The notes under the pieces are model-generated. The model was not told the origin of the DNA and made no database searches. It was given only the letters and a program-made list of their open reading frames with translations. A stretch of 64,000 nucleotides of DNA from Anaerolineae bacterium (lineage in GTDB: Bacteria > Chloroflexota > Anaerolineae > Aggregatilineales > Aggregatilineaceae): positions 1 to 64,000 of the forward strand of contig JAFGHR010000084.1 of the NCBI GenBank assembly GCA_016930015.1, in the 5' to 3' direction. The first letter of the stretch is position 1. Every line of letters begins with the position of its first letter. The translations under genes and the position numbers were made by a program. Below are positions 6,750 through 17,088 of this stretch, in pieces.

Positions 6750-8411
6750 ATGAAAAAGCTTACAGGTTTGGTCATTGTTTTTGCCATCGTGCTGGCGGTC
6801 TTGTCACCGGCCAGCGCCCAGGACGGACCATCTCGTAAACCGTGCAACTACGATCCCAACCGCACGCAGCCGTTTAAGACCACCTATGTAAACGAAAAAC
6901 TTCCCCTGTTCAGCCAGTTTTATGACGAAAGCTGGGGGACAGCCTGGTGTGCGCCAACTGCCGCCGGGATCGCGTTCGCGTATTGGGCCGAAAACGGGTT
7001 TCCGGCCTTGCTGACCGATACCAACGGCAACACGATGTATGAACAAGAAGAAAAATATGCGGGCGTAAACGTGTTGGGTAACATGATGGGCACCAACGTA
7101 GACGCCGGTAACACCGATGACGAAGTGCTCGCCGGTATCCGCAGTTACCTGGAATCCGCCGGCGCTTTGCAAGACTTCGTGATCCGCGTGTATGACGCCG
7201 ACGAAGGCACCACCGACCCGATTTTTGAAGATTACGCGTTCGAACTGGAGTCCGGGGGCGCGGTGTTGGTCGGGCTGGAGTGGGAAAACGGCGGGCACTG
7301 GCTGGTTGGGCGGGCCGTGTCACGCATCAAAAACGACGAAGGCACGCACTACGTCAACTTTATCGATCCAGGCACGGGGCGATCATACAACACGCGCATG
7401 AAGCCCAGCGGGGCGGTGTGGTATAACCGCCAGTGGGTGACGTTCGATATCATGATCGTTGTTGTGCCCACCGAAATGCCGATGCTGGTCGCGACCGCTA
7501 TCGCCGGGGCGACCCTGATCATGCCGCCAACCAGCACACCCGATGCAGGCGCCGCACCAACGGAAATCCTCAGCCTGCCGACCGAATCGCTGCCGGTGGA
7601 CGAGGGCGACCGGATCGTGTTCCAGTCGGACCGTGACGGGGAAAACGAGGTTTTCACGGTTAACGCCGACGGCAGCGACCTGCGCCAGCTCACGTTTAAT
7701 GAGGTGTATGACGGCGCGCCCGCCTGGTCACCGGACAAGACCAAAATCGCGTTTGGCGGCACGGGGCAGCATAACGGCTATAACGACGATGAAGTGTTTG
7801 TGATGAACGCCGACGGTTCTAACGTCCAAAATCTGACGAATTCACCCGGCGTGGACTGGTCGCCCGCGTGGTCACCGGATGGGCAGCAGATCGTGTTCCA
7901 CTCGGACCGCGACGGCGACTACGACATTTACATCATGGATGCTGACGGCTCCAACCTGCGCCAGCTTACATTTAACAGCGCCGCTGACTGGCATCCGAAC
8001 TGGTCACCGGACGGCAGCACGATCGTGTATGCCAGCGATATCGACGGCGACTACGACATTTACACGGTCAGCGTGGACGGCGGCCAGCCGATCCAGATCA
8101 CCTATAACAACCAGACCGATGCCTGGCCGATGTGGTCACCGGATGGCACCCAGATCGCATGTGAATCCAGCAATACAGTCGATGGCGGCTTCCAGGTGCT
8201 CGTCATGGATGCCGACGGCAGCGGTATTTTCCAGGTGACGAGCGCTACCGATCATGAAAACTGGCATCCGTCCTGGTCACCGGATGGCACGCGGATCGTG
8301 TTTGCGTCCAACAAAGACGGGAATTTCGACATCTGGACGATCAACGTGGACGGCACCAACCGCCAGCGTATTACCTACAATACGTCCGAGGAAAACTGGC
8401 CGGACTGGTAA
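6750..8411 (+). CDS. Secreted C39-like cysteine peptidase fused to a PD40 propeller
   Basis: A 553-residue protein with a signal peptide (residues 1-24). Residues ~45-245 are a papain-like C39-type domain: Cys67 in [10 protein letters not shown], His183 in [10 protein letters not shown] and Asp206 in NFIDPGTG form a plausible triad. A Thr/Pro linker ([15 protein letters not shown]) leads to about six TolB-like PD40 repeats (residues ~290-553), each carrying a version of [12 protein letters not shown] and WSPDG. Such propellers usually bind partners or ligands. Codons in the repeats are very alike, hinting at recent duplication. A strong terminator follows the stop, and the next gene is a second PD40 propeller. 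Confidence 0.8.
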
Positions 8412-8421
8412 CGGTTTTTTT

Positions 8422-8457
8422 AGAAGACACCACAGCACAACGGTGTCTTCTTTTTTT
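8422..8457 (+). terminator. Rho-independent terminator after the C39/PD40 gene
   Basis: A perfect 10-bp stem (AGAAGACACC at 8422-8431 with GGTGTCTTCT at 8442-8451) and a 10-base loop end in a run of eight T. A matching run of T/A precedes the stem, so it may work in both directions. Confidence 0.9.
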
Positions 8458-8529
8458 GTGATGGAATTATCGTTCAACCGGGCGGGGGAACGCTGCCCCG
8501 GCGCGCAGTTACACGGAGGTCACACATCA

Positions 8530-9672
8530 ATGGTTACACGCCGGATTCTTAGTTTGTTAGTGATGTTGGCAGCCGTGATCGCGCTGCCCGTCGCGTTTAT
8601 CTCGGACAGCGCCCACGCTGCCGGGGCGGGGGGACACATCGCGTTTGGGTCCGACCGTGACGGTGACTGGGATATCTACGTCATGAATCCGGACGGGTCG
8701 AACGTGCGCCAGCTCACGCTGAACACCGACGATGATTTTCGTCCAGCGTGGTCACCGGATGGGCGGCAGATCGCGTTTCACTCCGACCGTGACGGCGACT
8801 ACGAAATTTACGTCATGAACGCGGACGGCTCGAACGTGCGCCAGTTGACGTTTAACACAGCCGCCGACGTCCACGCGGCGTGGTCGCCCGATGGCACGCG
8901 CATCGCGTACCAGTCGAGCGTGAACGGCCTGCGCGATATCTACGTGGTTTACCCGGACGGCACGAATCCGCGCCTGCTGACGAACAACGCGCTGGATGAC
9001 TGGTTCCCGGCGTGGTCACCGGACAGCAACCAGATCGTGACCTACGCGGCTTCCAGCAGCATCGCGGTATTTGTCGGCCAGCACGGCGCGGGCAGCATGG
9101 AATACCACGTCAACGACCTGCCGGACGTTTACCTGTCGTGCGACGAGATCATGAATTCGACGCAGTTTCAACCGCTGGCCGTGTTTGTCGGCGCGTCGAA
9201 TCAGGCCGTCAACGCGGCGGCTTACCACGCCATCGCGATTCCGGGGCAGGTGACTGCCGGCCTGCCGGGCGCGTGGTTGTTCCGCGTGGCGGACCTGGGC
9301 GGGTGTGAGGACCGCGAGCTAACCATCATGAACGCCGACGGCAGCGCGTCGCGGCGGCTCACCAACAATTTCGCCGATGACCGTTACCCGGCGTGGTCAC
9401 CGGACGGCACGCGCATCGCGTTTGCGTCCGACCTGGACAGCGACTTTGAGATTTACCTGTTCGATCTGCGCACGAACAACATCGTCCAGATCACGGCCAA
9501 CCGCCAGACCGACTGGGCGCCAGCGTGGTCACCGGACAGCACGCAGATCGTGTTTTCGTCCGACCGCGACGGCGACAACGAGGTCTACATCATGAACGTG
9601 GACGGCTCGAACGTGGTCCAGTTGACGTTTAATGCGGCTCAGGATGAACTGCCCGCCTGGTCGCCCTGGTAG
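8530..9672 (+). CDS. Secreted TolB-like PD40 beta-propeller protein with an inserted domain
   Basis: A 380-residue protein. The start is ATG 8530 with ACGGAGGT 9 bases upstream; an open frame extends further left but belongs to the preceding gene's repeats read in another frame. A signal peptide (residues 1-33, SAHAAGAGG) precedes three or four PD40 repeats ([25 protein letters not shown]), then about 85 unrelated residues (~175-260, with three Cys in total) and three more repeats. The insert begins after [16 protein letters not shown]. It is probably a binding protein at the cell surface. The gene sits 23 bases before a sigma-factor-like gene. Confidence 0.8.
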
Positions 9673-10824: not shown

Positions 10825-11685
10825 TTACCTCTGCGCGCACAACGCCTGCCACTCCTCCAGGGTCGGGTCAGTCACCGGCCAGCCTTCAGGATTGGGCCAG
10901 TTCGCCGGTGCGCCATACGGCATCACCTGGTGTCCCAGCGGGTTGGCATATCCGTCCTCGTCGCAGATGTTGCCCAGCAGCCGTCCCCGCTCTAATTCGG
11001 ACAGCGTCAGCAGCGTGCCATCCAGGCTGAGGATGTATCGCTTGATCTGGTATTCCCATCCTGCCCTCATAGCCGACACTTCTTCCCAGCCAGTCAGGTG
11101 GGTTCGCGGCCCATCGCCCAGTCCCTCGGTCTCGAACTGGTACTCCTGCCAGGAGTGCCCCACTTCTTCGATGTAGGTCGAGAGCACATCGTCGAATGTC
11201 GGGCGCGCTGCCATGCTCCCGTCGGGCTGCGGGTCGGAGAACATCGTCGCGCCGAACCGGACCAGCGACTGCTTGCTCACCAGGTCCATCCCGCACACGT
11301 CGCCCATCGTGCGTGCCAGCCTGGGATTGTCACACTCCGATGGGACGCGGTCGCGCACCATCACTTCACCGCGGATGTTCCACGCCAGGTTCGCATCGAA
11401 GGCGACCGTGTCCCCAGGGGCGGGTGCCCATCCCCCGCGTGCCAGGGCGATATCGGCGACCAGCGCTACCGCGGCCTGTCCGTCGCCCTGCCGCACCATC
11501 TCGAACACGGAACGCGCCTCATCACCGGCTGCCGCGGCGGTCCGCGACGTCATGACAAACCGTCCCACACTCAGACTGCCGACCACCACCAGCGCCGCCG
11601 CTAGAAACAAGATGTTTCGCCATCCCTTGCGCACGTTCCCGTAAGTCTTCTGTGCTATACTGATGACACTTGCGTTCCCGTTCAT
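10825..11685 (-). CDS. Single-pass membrane protein of unknown function
   Basis: A 286-residue protein with GGAGGAG 8 bases before its ATG. One membrane segment lies at about residues 25-45 (ILFLAAALVVVGSLSVGRFV), followed by a soluble domain outside the cytoplasm. A helix carrying YIEEVGHSWQEYQFETEG stands out for its His and Glu spacing and might bind a metal, but it is not the standard HExxH motif. Four Cys are present in the soluble part. It is divergent from the giant SARP/kinase gene, sharing the 147-bp region with the 11-bp-period repeats, so it may be under the same control. I do not recognise the family. Confidence 0.65.
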   Translation of the reverse strand: MNGNASVISIAQKTYGNVRKGWRNILFLAAALVVVGSLSVGRFVMTSRTAAAAGDEARSVFEMVRQGDGQAAVALVADIALARGGWAPAPGDTVAFDANLAWNIRGEVMVRDRVPSECDNPRLARTMGDVCGMDLVSKQSLVRFGATMFSDPQPDGSMAARPTFDDVLSTYIEEVGHSWQEYQFETEGLGDGPRTHLTGWEEVSAMRAGWEYQIKRYILSLDGTLLTLSELERGRLLGNICDEDGYANPLGHQVMPYGAPANWPNPEGWPVTDPTLEEWQALCAQR

Positions 11686-11762
11686 GGCTCGTCTCCTCCG
11701 TCTTTGCCCCGACCGTGGCCGGTGAGCGCGTTTGTGTATGACCTCAGACTAGGCAACTGCCG

Positions 11763-11822
11763 TTCGGCGGCGGCTCGACGACGGTTCGACAAACCTTCGA
11801 GAAACGTTCGACTAACGTTCGA
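11763..11822 (+). promoter_or_regulatory. Six TTCGA direct repeats at an exact 11-bp period (candidate SARP operator)
   Basis: TTCGG at 11763, CTCGA at 11774, then TTCGA at 11785, 11796, 11807 and 11818: every start is 11 bases from the last. Most units read G-TTCGA followed by a short A/C-rich spacer. SARP regulators bind tandem heptamers spaced one helical turn (11 bp) apart, often with a TCGAG core. The array ends 10 bases before the ATG of a protein that begins with a SARP domain and overlaps its ribosome-binding site, which suggests self-control. Binding is inferred. Confidence 0.7.
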
Positions 11823-11832
11823 GGGGGAAACG

Positions 11833-14800
11833 ATGGGCCCACGACTGGAGATTCAGACGCTGGGTGGCGTGACGGTCACCTGTGATGAGACCCGCGTTGA
11901 GTTCGGGCAGCGTAAGACGCTCGCCCTGCTGGTGTACCTCGCCTACCACCCCCACCCGCATCCGCGTGAAGTGCTCGCCGAGATGTTGTGGGAAGACCGC
12001 ACGCAAGCCCAATCGTTGGCCAATCTACGGGTCGTGCTGACCGACTTGCGCCAAGCAGTCAAACCCTTCATGTGCATCACGCGCGAGACAGCCGGAATCG
12101 ATCCAGACAGCGACATCGCGCTGGATGTGACCGTCTTCGAGCACATGTTGGACGAAGCGGTGGCGGACGTTTCACGGCTTGCTACTGGTGTGGAGATGTA
12201 TCAGGGGGACTTCCTGGCGGGGTTCTACATTGACAGCTCCGCCTTCGAGACCTGGGCTACCCGCGAACGCGAACGCTTGAAGCTGCGCGTGATGGATGCC
12301 TTCGATAGCCTCATCAGCGGGGACCGGGACCTTGGCGACTACCAGGCGGGACTGGCACGCGCGGCGCGGCTGCTGGCGCTGGACCCTTTGCGCGAGGAGA
12401 CCCATCGCCAGATCATGGAGCTGCTGTGGCGCTCCGGGCAGCGCGCCAAAGCACTTGAGCAATATGACCAATGCCGTCAGGTGTTGGCCGATGAACTGGG
12501 CGTCGAGCCAGCCCCGGCGATGACTGAGTTGTATGAACTCATCCGCACAGGAGAAACGCCCGAACGTGCCGACCAGCCCCCGCCCATTCGCGGCTACGCG
12601 ATCCGCGAGCGCATCGGCGCGGGCGGCTTTGGCGAGGTCTATCGCGCCTGGCAGCCGGTGGTCAATCGCGAGGTGGCAATCAAGATCATCCGCCCCGAGT
12701 ACGCCAATCATCCCGACTTCATTCGCCGCTTCGAGACCGAAGCGCAGCTTGTCGCGCGGCTCGAACACCCGCATATCGTGCCGCTCTACGATTACTGGCG
12801 CGAGCCGGATGGGGCATTCTTGGTCATGCGCTACCTGCGTGGCGGCAGCCTGCGGCAGCGCCTGGACAATGGCCCGCTTTCGTTCGATGACTGCGCGCAT
12901 CTCGTGGAGCATGTCGCTGGCGCGTTGACCGTCGCACACCAGCAGGGGATCGTGCACCGCGACCTCAAACCCGCCAACATCCTGCTCGATGATGCTGGCA
13001 ACGCGTACCTGTGCGATTTTGGCATCGCCAAGGTGCTCGATCCGGCGGTGCGGGCGACCCAGGAAGGCGCGCTCGTCGGGTCACCAGCATATCTTTCACC
13101 GGAGCAGATTCGTAGCGAACAGGTCACGCCCGGCTCGGACATCTACAGCTTCGGCATCTTGTTGTACGAAACGTTGACCGGCCAACCGCCGTTTTCGAAT
13201 GCCCTGACACCCTCGGCGCTGCTGTACAGCCAACTCAATGAACCGCTGCCCTCACTGCTCGATCTCTGTCCCGATCTGCCGCCTGGGCTGGACACTGTGG
13301 TCCAGCGCGCAACCGCCAAAGATCCCTTGGACCGCTATCGTGATGTCCAGGGTCTGGCAGCGGCGTTCCGCGCGGCGGGCGGGGATGCTGTGGCTGAACT
13401 ACCGGCAATCCCATACACGTTGCCAGAGAGTGCGATCGCCTTGATGGTGCAGCGCAATCCCTACAAAGGGCTGCGCCCCTTCACGGAAGCCGACGCCGAT
13501 GACTTCTTCGGGAGAGAAACAGCGGTCGACCACCTGCTGGCCCGATTGGAGGAAGACACGGGTGAGTTCGGACGTTTCCTGGCGGTGGTGGGACCCAGCG
13601 GCTGTGGCAAGTCGAGTGTGGTGCGGGCCGGGCTGCTGCCTGCCCTGCGCGCGGGACGACTGCCCGGTGCGGAGGAGTGGTTCGTGGCCGGAATGCTGCC
13701 GGGCGCTCATCCTCTTGAGGAGATCGATATCGCACTCACACGGGTCGCAGCAGCACCTGACCTCAACCTGCTGCCCGTGCTGCGCGACGATGAACGCGGC
13801 CTGCTGCGCGCCGTTCGCCGGGTGCTGCCCAACGATGCGACGCTGCTGCTGGTGATTGACCAGTTTGAGGAGGTCTTCACCCTGGTCGACGACCCGGCGG
13901 AAGCGCGATTTTTCATGGACAGCCTGTATGCAGCCGTCACCGATCTGCGCAGTCCGCTGCGCATCGTCATCACCCTGCGCGCTGACTTCTATGACCGCCC
14001 GCTGATGCACCCCGACTTCAGCCAGTTGGTGCGCCAGCGGACCGAAGCCATCGTGCCGATGATGGCGGAAGAGGTCGAACGGGCGGTCAGCTTGCCCGCT
14101 GAAAGCGTAGGGGTCAAGCTGGAACCAGGATTGACCGCGGCCATCACGGCGGAGGTCCACGAGCAGCCGGGGGCACTGCCGATGTTGCAGTATGCCCTGA
14201 CTGAGTTGTTCGACCATGCCACCGACCATGTGCTGACCTTGGACGCCTACCAGGCTGTCGGGGGAGTACAGGGCGCGCTGGCCCGGCGCGCCGGTGAGGT
14301 CTACGGTAGTCTGACTCCTGACCAGCAGCATGTCGCGCGGCAGTTGTTCCTGCGGCTGGTAACGCTGGGCGAAGGCGTGGAGGACACACGGCGACGCGCC
14401 CTGCAGGCCGAACTGCTGTCGGTGAGCGGCGAGACCATGCAGGCGGTCATAGACGTCTTTGACCGCGCCCGGTTGCTGACCTTTGACCATGACCCGGTCA
14501 CACGTGGCCCAACCGTCGAGGTCGCACACGAAGCCATCCTGCGCGAGTGGGACTTGCTGCGTGCGTGGCTGGACGAGAGCCGGAACGATATACGGTTGCA
14601 GCGTATGCTGGCCACCGCCGCGACCGAATGGCAGCATGCCGGGCAGGAGACCAGCTACCTGTTGAGTGGCGCGCGGCTGGCGCAGTTCGAGGAGTGGGCT
14701 GCCCACACTACGCTGGCCCTGACCCAGGAGGAGCGTGACTTTCTGGCGGAGAGTACCAGCGAAGACCGGCGGCGCAAGGCGGTTCAGCGCCGCGTCCGTA

Positions 14801-17088
14801 ATACGGTGCTGGCTGCCGCGGTTGTGATCGCGGTGGTCATGGGTGCGCTGGCCCTGCTGGCCTCAGACCGCGAACAGCAGGCACAGCAAGCACGTGAGCA
14901 AGCCCTCAGTGCACGTGCCACCAGCGATTACAACGCCGAGGTTGCTGTCGCCAACGCCGCCGAGGCACGCGAACTCGCCCTGGTCAACGGCGCGCGGGCC
15001 GCGCTGGTGAGTGGCGATCTGGATACAGCGCTGGCATTGGCAGTGACCGCAAACCAGAGCGACACCCCTTCTGCCGAGGCACAGACAATTCTGTCGGAAG
15101 CAGCGTACCAGCCGGGCACCATTCGCCGCCTTGTTGGCGATAGACTTGGTATAATCATGACCATCGCTGTCAGCCCGGACGGCCAGACGGCGCTTTCGGG
15201 GGGAGAAGCCGGCAAAACCACCTGCTGGGACCTGAACACAGGGAAAGTCATCTATGATCTTCAAGGTCATGATCCGGCAGGGATAGTGTTGGATGTGGAT
15301 ATCAGCCCGGATGGCCGGACCGGAGTGTCTATCGCTGAAGATCAGTCCATCATCCTTTGGGATTTGAAAACTGGGGAGATGATTCGACGCTTTGGTGAAG
15401 ATCACATTCTGAGTCCCCATTCCCTTTCGGTGGCCTTCAGTCCGGACGGGCAAACAGTGCTTTCCAACAACGGCGGACGGTCGGTGCTTGCGGAATTTCC
15501 TGAAGACGAAGAAGCTAATCTGATTCTGTGGGACGTGAGCACAGGGGAACCGGTTCGTACTTTTCACGGGCATACGGCCATAACAGGTCGTTTGGCGATC
15601 AGCCCCGATGGCAAGACGGCCTTGTCGGGAGCCTGGGGCGGTGAGCTTATCCTGTGGGATATGGCAACTGGCGAAGCCATCCAGCAGTTCGGGGAAATAA
15701 GCGAGATGCCATTCAAGCTGCCGAGTGACATCAAGTATATGCCAGATGGTGGGCATGCACTGGTTCTCTATGCAGACAACACCATCATTTTGTGGGACCT
15801 CGAGACGTTTGAAGCACTACAGCATTACGGTGAGCCAGGCGGGTTCAACGGCTATGCCGAGTTCGATATCAGTCCCGACGGACGCCTGATGCTGATGCCC
15901 AGTTTTGAAGATAAGCTGGTAATTCTGGATGTGGAGACCGGGGCGACGATTATGCCGCTGCCCGGATACAATACCGGAGCTGCATTCATGCGCGACGGGC
16001 GCGCGGTGCTCGTCGGGATGGTAAGCGAACTTCGTCTGCTGGCGATTCAGTACGGGGCAGAGGTGCGCCAGTTCTCAACCGATTTTCCACCTCTGCTGGC
16101 AACCCTCAGCCCGGATGGGCGGACTTTGTTTGTCGCGATTGATAACGGCTTCGAGATGGAAGATGCCCGAGAATGTGCCATTGTTTTGTTTGACGTTGAA
16201 TCGGGTCAGGAAACTCAGCGCTTCGGCCTGGATACCCCTCTTATCCGCGAACTGGGCTGTCCGGTGACGAGTCTCGCGCTTAGCCCGGACGGACATACCG
16301 CGTTGGTTGGCGGCGGACGTGCCATAGCAAAGGCTGGTAGTGAAGGACCGGCTGTGCTGTGGGATGTAACCACCGGCGAGGTGCTGCATATTCTTGAGGG
16401 TCCCAGCGGAGGTTTCAGCGCCGTTGTTTTCAGCCCGGATGGACAGACCGCGCTGACAGGAGGCCGGAACGAGTTCACTGTAATCCTCTGGGACGTGGAA
16501 TCGGGCCAGGAGATACGCCGCCTGACCGGTCACACCAATACGGTATGGCGCGTCGTCTTTAGCCCGGATGGGCAGACCGCGCTGTCCAGCGGGCAGGATG
16601 GCCTCGTCATCCTGTGGAATCTAGCTACTGGCGAGGCAATCCACGAACTTGAAGGACATGTGGGCGGTGCGAACGATGTGGGATTCAGTCCCGACGGGTC
16701 GACAGCACTGTCCATTGGTGATGACGGTCGCCTGATTCTGTGGGATCTCAAAACCGGGCAGTTGGTGATGAGCCTGGAGGCTGAGGCCTCCAGTGGCGTT
16801 GAGTTCAGTCCGGACGGGCGCTACGCCCTCACCAGTGGCGGGAGAAACAGCGTATGGGACCTCACTACCGGCAGTGAGGTGCGGCGTTACAGCACAGACT
16901 GGTGGCACCAGCTCAACCTAAGCCTGGATGCCGAGACCTTTTTCGTAATAGGTCCGGATGACCATGTCCATCAATGGCGCATTGATTGGGGTGCAGACCT
17001 GCTAACCTGGACGCTTGACCACCGCTATGTGCGCGATCTAACCTGCGAGGAACGCGCGCAGTATCACATCGAGCCGCTGTGTGAGTGA
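11833..17088 (+). CDS. SARP/BTAD - Ser/Thr kinase - nSTAND NTPase - WD40 giant regulator
   Basis: A 1751-residue protein starting at ATG 11833 (GAGGGGG just upstream). Domains in order: OmpR-type winged helix plus BTAD helices (1 to ~250, the SARP unit); protein kinase (~257-520) with GAGGFGEVYR, Lys284, HRDLKPANI (Asp377) and DFG (Asp395), all catalytic residues present; nSTAND-type NTPase (~540-960) with P-loop GPSGCGKSS (587-595) and Walker B LLLVIDQFEE (Asp676); one hydrophobic segment near 990-1012; then WD40 repeats (~1105-1750, SPDGQTALSGG type). DNA binding plus a membrane-like segment in one chain is odd and suggests a membrane-tethered regulator. Probably the WD40 part senses, the NTPase switches and the kinase or SARP part acts. 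The 11-bp repeats upstream are its likely own target. Confidence 0.85.
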   Translation: MGPRLEIQTLGGVTVTCDETRVEFGQRKTLALLVYLAYHPHPHPREVLAEMLWEDRTQAQSLANLRVVLTDLRQAVKPFMCITRETAGIDPDSDIALDVTVFEHMLDEAVADVSRLATGVEMYQGDFLAGFYIDSSAFETWATRERERLKLRVMDAFDSLISGDRDLGDYQAGLARAARLLALDPLREETHRQIMELLWRSGQRAKALEQYDQCRQVLADELGVEPAPAMTELYELIRTGETPERADQPPPIRGYAIRERIGAGGFGEVYRAWQPVVNREVAIKIIRPEYANHPDFIRRFETEAQLVARLEHPHIVPLYDYWREPDGAFLVMRYLRGGSLRQRLDNGPLSFDDCAHLVEHVAGALTVAHQQGIVHRDLKPANILLDDAGNAYLCDFGIAKVLDPAVRATQEGALVGSPAYLSPEQIRSEQVTPGSDIYSFGILLYETLTGQPPFSNALTPSALLYSQLNEPLPSLLDLCPDLPPGLDTVVQRATAKDPLDRYRDVQGLAAAFRAAGGDAVAELPAIPYTLPESAIALMVQRNPYKGLRPFTEADADDFFGRETAVDHLLARLEEDTGEFGRFLAVVGPSGCGKSSVVRAGLLPALRAGRLPGAEEWFVAGMLPGAHPLEEIDIALTRVAAAPDLNLLPVLRDDERGLLRAVRRVLPNDATLLLVIDQFEEVFTLVDDPAEARFFMDSLYAAVTDLRSPLRIVITLRADFYDRPLMHPDFSQLVRQRTEAIVPMMAEEVERAVSLPAESVGVKLEPGLTAAITAEVHEQPGALPMLQYALTELFDHATDHVLTLDAYQAVGGVQGALARRAGEVYGSLTPDQQHVARQLFLRLVTLGEGVEDTRRRALQAELLSVSGETMQAVIDVFDRARLLTFDHDPVTRGPTVEVAHEAILREWDLLRAWLDESRNDIRLQRMLATAATEWQHAGQETSYLLSGARLAQFEEWAAHTTLALTQEERDFLAESTSEDRRRKAVQRRVRNTVLAAAVVIAVVMGALALLASDREQQAQQAREQALSARATSDYNAEVAVANAAEARELALVNGARAALVSGDLDTALALAVTANQSDTPSAEAQTILSEAAYQPGTIRRLVGDRLGIIMTIAVSPDGQTALSGGEAGKTTCWDLNTGKVIYDLQGHDPAGIVLDVDISPDGRTGVSIAEDQSIILWDLKTGEMIRRFGEDHILSPHSLSVAFSPDGQTVLSNNGGRSVLAEFPEDEEANLILWDVSTGEPVRTFHGHTAITGRLAISPDGKTALSGAWGGELILWDMATGEAIQQFGEISEMPFKLPSDIKYMPDGGHALVLYADNTIILWDLETFEALQHYGEPGGFNGYAEFDISPDGRLMLMPSFEDKLVILDVETGATIMPLPGYNTGAAFMRDGRAVLVGMVSELRLLAIQYGAEVRQFSTDFPPLLATLSPDGRTLFVAIDNGFEMEDARECAIVLFDVESGQETQRFGLDTPLIRELGCPVTSLALSPDGHTALVGGGRAIAKAGSEGPAVLWDVTTGEVLHILEGPSGGFSAVVFSPDGQTALTGGRNEFTVILWDVESGQEIRRLTGHTNTVWRVVFSPDGQTALSSGQDGLVILWNLATGEAIHELEGHVGGANDVGFSPDGSTALSIGDDGRLILWDLKTGQLVMSLEAEASSGVEFSPDGRYALTSGGRNSVWDLTTGSEVRRYSTDWWHQLNLSLDAETFFVIGPDDHVHQWRIDWGADLLTWTLDHRYVRDLTCEERAQYHIEPLCE

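Follow-up and report, generated by a model that had tools for sequence, protein, structure and literature searches.

A six-repeat SARP-type heptamer array in an Anaerolineae genome as the probable activator site of a gene divergent from a SARP-kinase gene

To our knowledge, SARPs are known nearly exclusively from actinomycetes, where they activate antibiotic clusters. Classical SARP sites, such as those of DnrI and ActII-ORF4, consist of two or three TCGAGCG-type heptamers with an 11-bp period in antibiotic cluster promoters, and in the AfsK-AfsR system the kinase AfsK phosphorylates AfsR. In published SARP promoters the direct repeats are spaced by 11 or 22 bp, 8 bp separate the 3' repeat from the -10 element, and the SARP touches the initial 8 bp of every 11-bp repeat; the -35 is poor and is covered by the afs box, which spans -19 to -40 (PMC10936776). 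In the SARP-LAL pairs PimR-pimM and ScnRI-ScnRII, 7-bp repeats with 4-bp spacers are intergenic and lie upstream of the target gene (PMC5930380). Within the literature accessible to our search, which left out many subscription papers, we found no work on SARP regulation in Chloroflexi.

The window analyzed here comprises 64 kb of a contig from an Anaerolineae bacterium. On its plus strand, six TTCGA-type units start at positions 11763 (TTCGG), 11774 (CTCGA), 11785, 11796, 11807 and 11818 (TTCGA at the last four). The exact 11-bp period described by the initial annotation could be reproduced, with two of the six units off TTCGA by one base. This array (11763-11822) agrees with six TTCGA units at period 11 in 28 of 30 positions, compared to a top score of 21 for other periods from 8 to 14 within the window, and a maximum of 20 among 40 sequences of the same 64-kb length drawn from a first-order Markov model. 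The source genome (4.04 Mb) was scanned by pattern search and by profile search. Further TTCGA arrays of this kind were not found in this genome: the pattern search for three TTCGA at 11-bp spacing returned nothing besides the array, even with one mismatch allowed, and the profile gave one match.

The initial annotation assigned the array to the plus-strand gene at 11833-17088, which codes for a 1751-residue SARP(BTAD)-Ser/Thr kinase-nSTAND1-TM helix-WD40 protein, and overlooked that this DNA likewise lies upstream of a divergent minus-strand gene (10825-11685, 286 aa). Read on the minus strand, the repeats are SARP-like heptamers of the TCGAACG-N4 type: TCGAACG (heptamer 1, distal, 11816-11822), TCGAACG (heptamer 2, 11805-11811), TCGAAGG (heptamer 3, 11794-11800), TCGAACC (heptamer 4, 11783-11789), TCGAGCC (heptamer 5, 11772-11778) and CCGAACG (heptamer 6, promoter-proximal, 11761-11767), separated in this order by TTAG, TTTC, TTTG, GTCG and GCCG. 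Heptamer 6 is followed by a 9-bp spacer, GCAGTTGCC (11752-11760), a -10 element TAGTCT (11746-11751) without recognizable -35, the Shine-Dalgarno sequence GGAGGAG (11693-11699) and the ATG at 11685. The start site of the target transcript would then lie at about 11739, with the two proximal repeats at about -18 to -39. The locus combines heptameric direct repeats at an 11-bp period, a conserved distance of about 8 bp between 3' repeat and -10 (9 bp from the heptamer end, 8 bp if the 8-bp contacted repeat is counted), and an orientation toward a gene with -10, Shine-Dalgarno sequence and reading frame downstream. The match to TAnnnT is a loose criterion for a -10 element, which counts against reading the region as a divergent promoter.

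Compared to the DnrI and ActII-ORF4 sites, the heptamer is near-identical and the period is the same, but the repeats number six instead of two or three. The geometry matches the AfsR box: at the afsS promoter of Streptomyces coelicolor, a large SARP with a STAND domain is likewise associated with 11-bp direct repeats, the -35 is poor, and the two proximal repeats hold a similar position (about -19 to -40; PMC10936776). The differences are that afsS has two repeats, that the target in our case is a divergent gene for a putatively exported or membrane protein, and that the host is not an actinomycete. PimR recognizes three plus two heptamers (CGGCAAG) that do not overlap the -35 (PMC5930380), and its target is a PAS-LuxR regulator of antibiotic genes.

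Of 154 genomes of the order, 12 encode a homologue of the 286-aa protein; in a sample of the class, homologues came from genomes of this same order only. The array together with the -10 element is present at 13 of the 15 target-homologue loci whose promoter region was read; at the remaining two (G407 and G397) no array was found. The conservation upstream of orthologues that the initial annotation had proposed to check is therefore real, though it is tied to the divergent target. With the window heptamer alone as the query, most other loci scored above all of 500 dinucleotide shuffles. The weakest locus (L154, p=0.022) owes its rank to an array shifted by one base, and at L150 the best score fell on a neighbouring TAnnnT; the TATGCT arrangement seen in L153 is also present there and matches once TATGCT is chosen. 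In a grid of periods from 8 to 14 and spacers from 5 to 13, evaluated on 19 promoters outside the window, a single peak emerged at period 11 and spacer 9 (23.3), with all other cells at or below 13.4. This peak is conservative, since the 19 promoters include two array-less homologues and L033. An alignment of 12 promoters revealed invariant columns A59, A60 and G62 in heptamer 6, and C71, T72, A73, T77 and G78 (CTAnnnTG) around the -10, while the distance from the -10 to the ATG varies from 38 to 85 nt across target loci. The arrangement of regulator, repeats and target recurs in related Chloroflexota-type genomes. Slippage makes short tandem arrays, and other 11-bp TTCGA arrays in genomes of the class adjoin unrelated genes; yet the probability that we are looking at a chance or functionless mutational repeat is negligible, given that the array has kept its phase with the -10 across families whose target proteins share 40-60% identity. 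The array is real and not a product of chance.

According to the central proposal of the initial annotation, the SARP protein would repress its own gene by binding the array and covering leader and ribosome-binding site. Some of this stands: a SARP-type direct-repeat site does lie beside a SARP gene, it is kept in orthologues, and its last unit does reach the ribosome-binding site, since unit 6 overlaps the SD-like GAGGGGG (11821-11827) of the ATG at 11833. In the window, as at the other SARP-adjacent loci, the array touches or almost touches the SARP start codon. It would also be crossed by the SARP transcript if this transcript began at a possible extended -10, TGCTATACT (11653-11661, plus strand, within the start of the target coding sequence), which is kept in two G396 loci that lack the target gene. 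What does not stand is a primary role as self-operator, because heptamers, spacer and -10 suit the opposite strand and face away from the SARP gene, and because the array follows the target.

This linkage is apparent from loci in which the two genes are separated. Of the 13 loci with an array, 10 have a SARP gene as the direct divergent neighbour. In the other three the array lies beside the target without abutting a SARP gene, and the neighbours, named from their sequences, are a DmpA-type peptidase-like gene (G401), a radical-SAM-like gene (G396 C3:1001216) and deoC, which in G414 stands between the array and a SARP gene starting 1.36 kb off. A fourth case (L165, G404:C199) has kept the promoter before a target remnant from which the middle was deleted in frame. 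For G401 and G404, both incomplete MAGs, no close full-length SARP-kinase orthologue was found; G401 holds a 54%-identical SARP-kinase fragment at a contig edge. Conversely, the array was absent upstream of five SARP-family genes without adjacent target (G406:C30, G414:C242, G397:C44, G407:C77 and G407:C397), including one whose product shares 67% identity with the window protein over the SARP-kinase part (G406:C30). At two SARP paralogues of G396 the divergent target has been lost or replaced; their divergent strand still carries a degenerated array (CCGAACG or CTGAACG), followed by 9 bp and TAnnnT. Since the array is present at targets without SARP neighbour and absent at SARP genes without target, it goes with the target and does not accompany the SARP gene whatever its neighbour. 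Upstream regions of other SARP genes show no excess of SARP-directed repeats either (2 of 40). Self-repression as the main function is therefore improbable. As a secondary effect it is possible, since the array lies near the SARP start codon in ten loci, and a bound array would cover the SARP leader and ribosome-binding site, which makes negative feedback plausible. That the repeats act at the RNA level, by giving the SARP mRNA a structured leader, is a very remote prospect: the array does lie within the probable leader, but this RNA folds no better than shuffles (z=0.47) and matches no Rfam family at a meaningful score, and conservation tracks helical phase and -10 geometry.

The N-terminus of the 11833-17088 product is a SARP domain, as had been proposed: it combines an OmpR-like winged helix with a BTAD domain (E=1.2e-26), residues 10-237 match the SARP structure of AfsR (8hvr, E=3.4e-13), and AfsR and EmbR matches begin at residues 4-11 and run to 237. 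The SARP domain is followed by Ser/Thr kinase, nSTAND1 and WD40 parts. A single strongly hydrophobic, TM-like segment (residues 992-1010) separates nSTAND from WD40 and recurs at the corresponding place in relatives from G403, G406 and G396, from which we infer a membrane-anchored regulator with the WD40 part outside. NCBIfam models for AfsK and AfsR both match, far below their cut-offs, and by these matches the protein resembles an AfsK-AfsR fusion. Unlike in the AfsK-AfsR system, the kinase is fused to the SARP, and WD40 plus a membrane helix replaces TPR. The SARP-kinase has its best named relatives in Chloroflexi and Anaerolineae MAGs, which suggests that the genome is a Chloroflexota MAG of the Anaerolineae type.

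The genome encodes other BTAD proteins besides this regulator, and relatives contain up to 14 SARP-domain matches. With several SARPs per genome, a paralogue could be the binder. The divergent promoter might then be real but bound by another SARP-family protein or a different regulator, with the neighbouring SARP-kinase merely sensing or modulating, and the target-array pairs that are unlinked to a SARP gene would fit such a division of labour. We consider this rather unlikely, in view of the ten loci where the SARP gene is the direct neighbour, and because arrays beside other SARP paralogues differ in heptamer, which is what one would predict if every SARP had a heptamer to itself.

The divergent target itself contains one N-terminal hydrophobic helix (residues 25-43) and is predicted to be an exported or membrane protein. 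Its family has an invariant EExxHSWQEY-type motif (EExxHSWQE). Searches against Pfam, NCBIfam and PDB sequences gave no match, and neither did the predicted structure against PDB folds at E<=0.001; trimming the N-terminal helix raised the pLDDT from 83.7 to 90.8 and still produced no fold match. Assignment as a metalloprotease was rejected, since EExxH replaces the HExxH of zincins and no fold matched; that the protein might be a degenerate zincin- or metalloprotease-like domain is only a thought. Elsewhere in the window, two adjacent plus-strand genes (8254-9672 and 6750-8411) code for secreted TolB/WD40-like beta-propeller proteins, the latter gene with 132-bp internal DNA repeats.

Taken together, we consider it likely that the array is the activator-binding part of the promoter of the divergent gene 10825-11685, and that the activator is the adjacent SARP-kinase. 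In this mechanism, SARP protomers would sit side by side on six in-phase TCGAACG heptamers, and the two proximal repeats (about -18 to -39) would put SARP over the missing -35. The bound SARP would hold sigma there and could then let a sigma-70-type RNA polymerase use the weak -10 TAGTCT to transcribe the gene for the 286-aa membrane or exported protein. The most probable activator is the 11833-17088 product, a putatively membrane-tethered fusion of a SARP, an AfsK-like kinase, a STAND NTPase and a WD40 propeller, and activation may be gated by phosphorylation or oligomerization. The adjacent SARP as binder, activation as the effect, and the signal are what we infer. If this is true, a signal path from an outside WD40 part via STAND and kinase to SARP and a neighbouring gene would reside in one protein, and the separate roles of AfsK and AfsR would be joined in a single chain. 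With regulator, site and target side by side, fused kinase-STAND-SARP signalling becomes directly testable. The locus would also represent a SARP regulon defined by sequence outside actinomycetes, in which the repeats number six and are in phase, and for which the genome seems to hold a single target promoter.

A sequence-only promoter profile built from the 12 promoters was run over the 154 genomes. The 13 strongest matches are all target promoters, which is in part expected, the model having been built from 12 of them, and no further strong matches emerged in these genomes. Matches from outside the model are the G404 remnant (E=9.8e-6) and a site upstream of a secreted hydrolase-like ORF (G396:C3:1458158, E=3.2e-5). 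The class-wide pattern TTCGA-N6-TTCGA-N6-TTCGA proved too loose to be useful: it occurs in nine other genomes, and the neighbours that were checked are unrelated to SARP.

For 40 further SARP genes of these genomes we asked for a three-repeat array 8-10 bp from TAnnnT at p<=0.05. Such arrays were found on the divergent strand in 12 cases and on the SARP strand in two, though many of these rows are orthologous to each other, so that 12 of 40 overstates independence and the independent number is perhaps nine. The heptamers differ from that of the window (CTAAACG/CTGAACG, TGTCACG, TGTGACG, TGAAACG and CGGAACG), mostly end in ACG and lie about 9 bp before the -10. Loci with such differing divergent arrays include L245, L247, L249, L257, L242, L243, L250, L220 and L222, from genomes G415, G107, G222, G419, G333, G403 and G406. 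Several ORFs divergent from these other SARP genes start signal-peptide-like, and one (L246, G415:C335) contains an LQR.IGNQA motif reminiscent of eCIS-associated cargo proteins. These observations suggest a general module of SARP plus divergent target in these genomes. A wider reading, which we offer only tentatively, is that the large multidomain SARPs of Anaerolineae-type genomes form modules of one regulator and one divergent exported target, in which the heptamer code is particular to each module and the 9-bp/-10 geometry is conserved; the present module would contain a membrane-tethered WD40-STAND-kinase-SARP chain. SARPs would in that case control exported proteins and not antibiotic clusters. 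The promoter rule (heptamer, 9 bp, TAnnnT) may serve to find the targets of many large SARPs in these genomes.

Among more distant SARP-kinase genes from Chloroflexi and Acidimicrobiia, upstream 11-bp repeats (as in L059, L060, L098, L119 and L120) were found in 53%, compared to 37% of kinase-only controls, an unconvincing difference. Three of these loci, of the Acidimicrobiia type (L098, L119 and L120), carry, roughly 50 bp ahead of the SARP match, TGCGAAC/TGCGATC pairs with 11-bp spacing; these pairs face the SARP gene, and may point to self-activation in that lineage.
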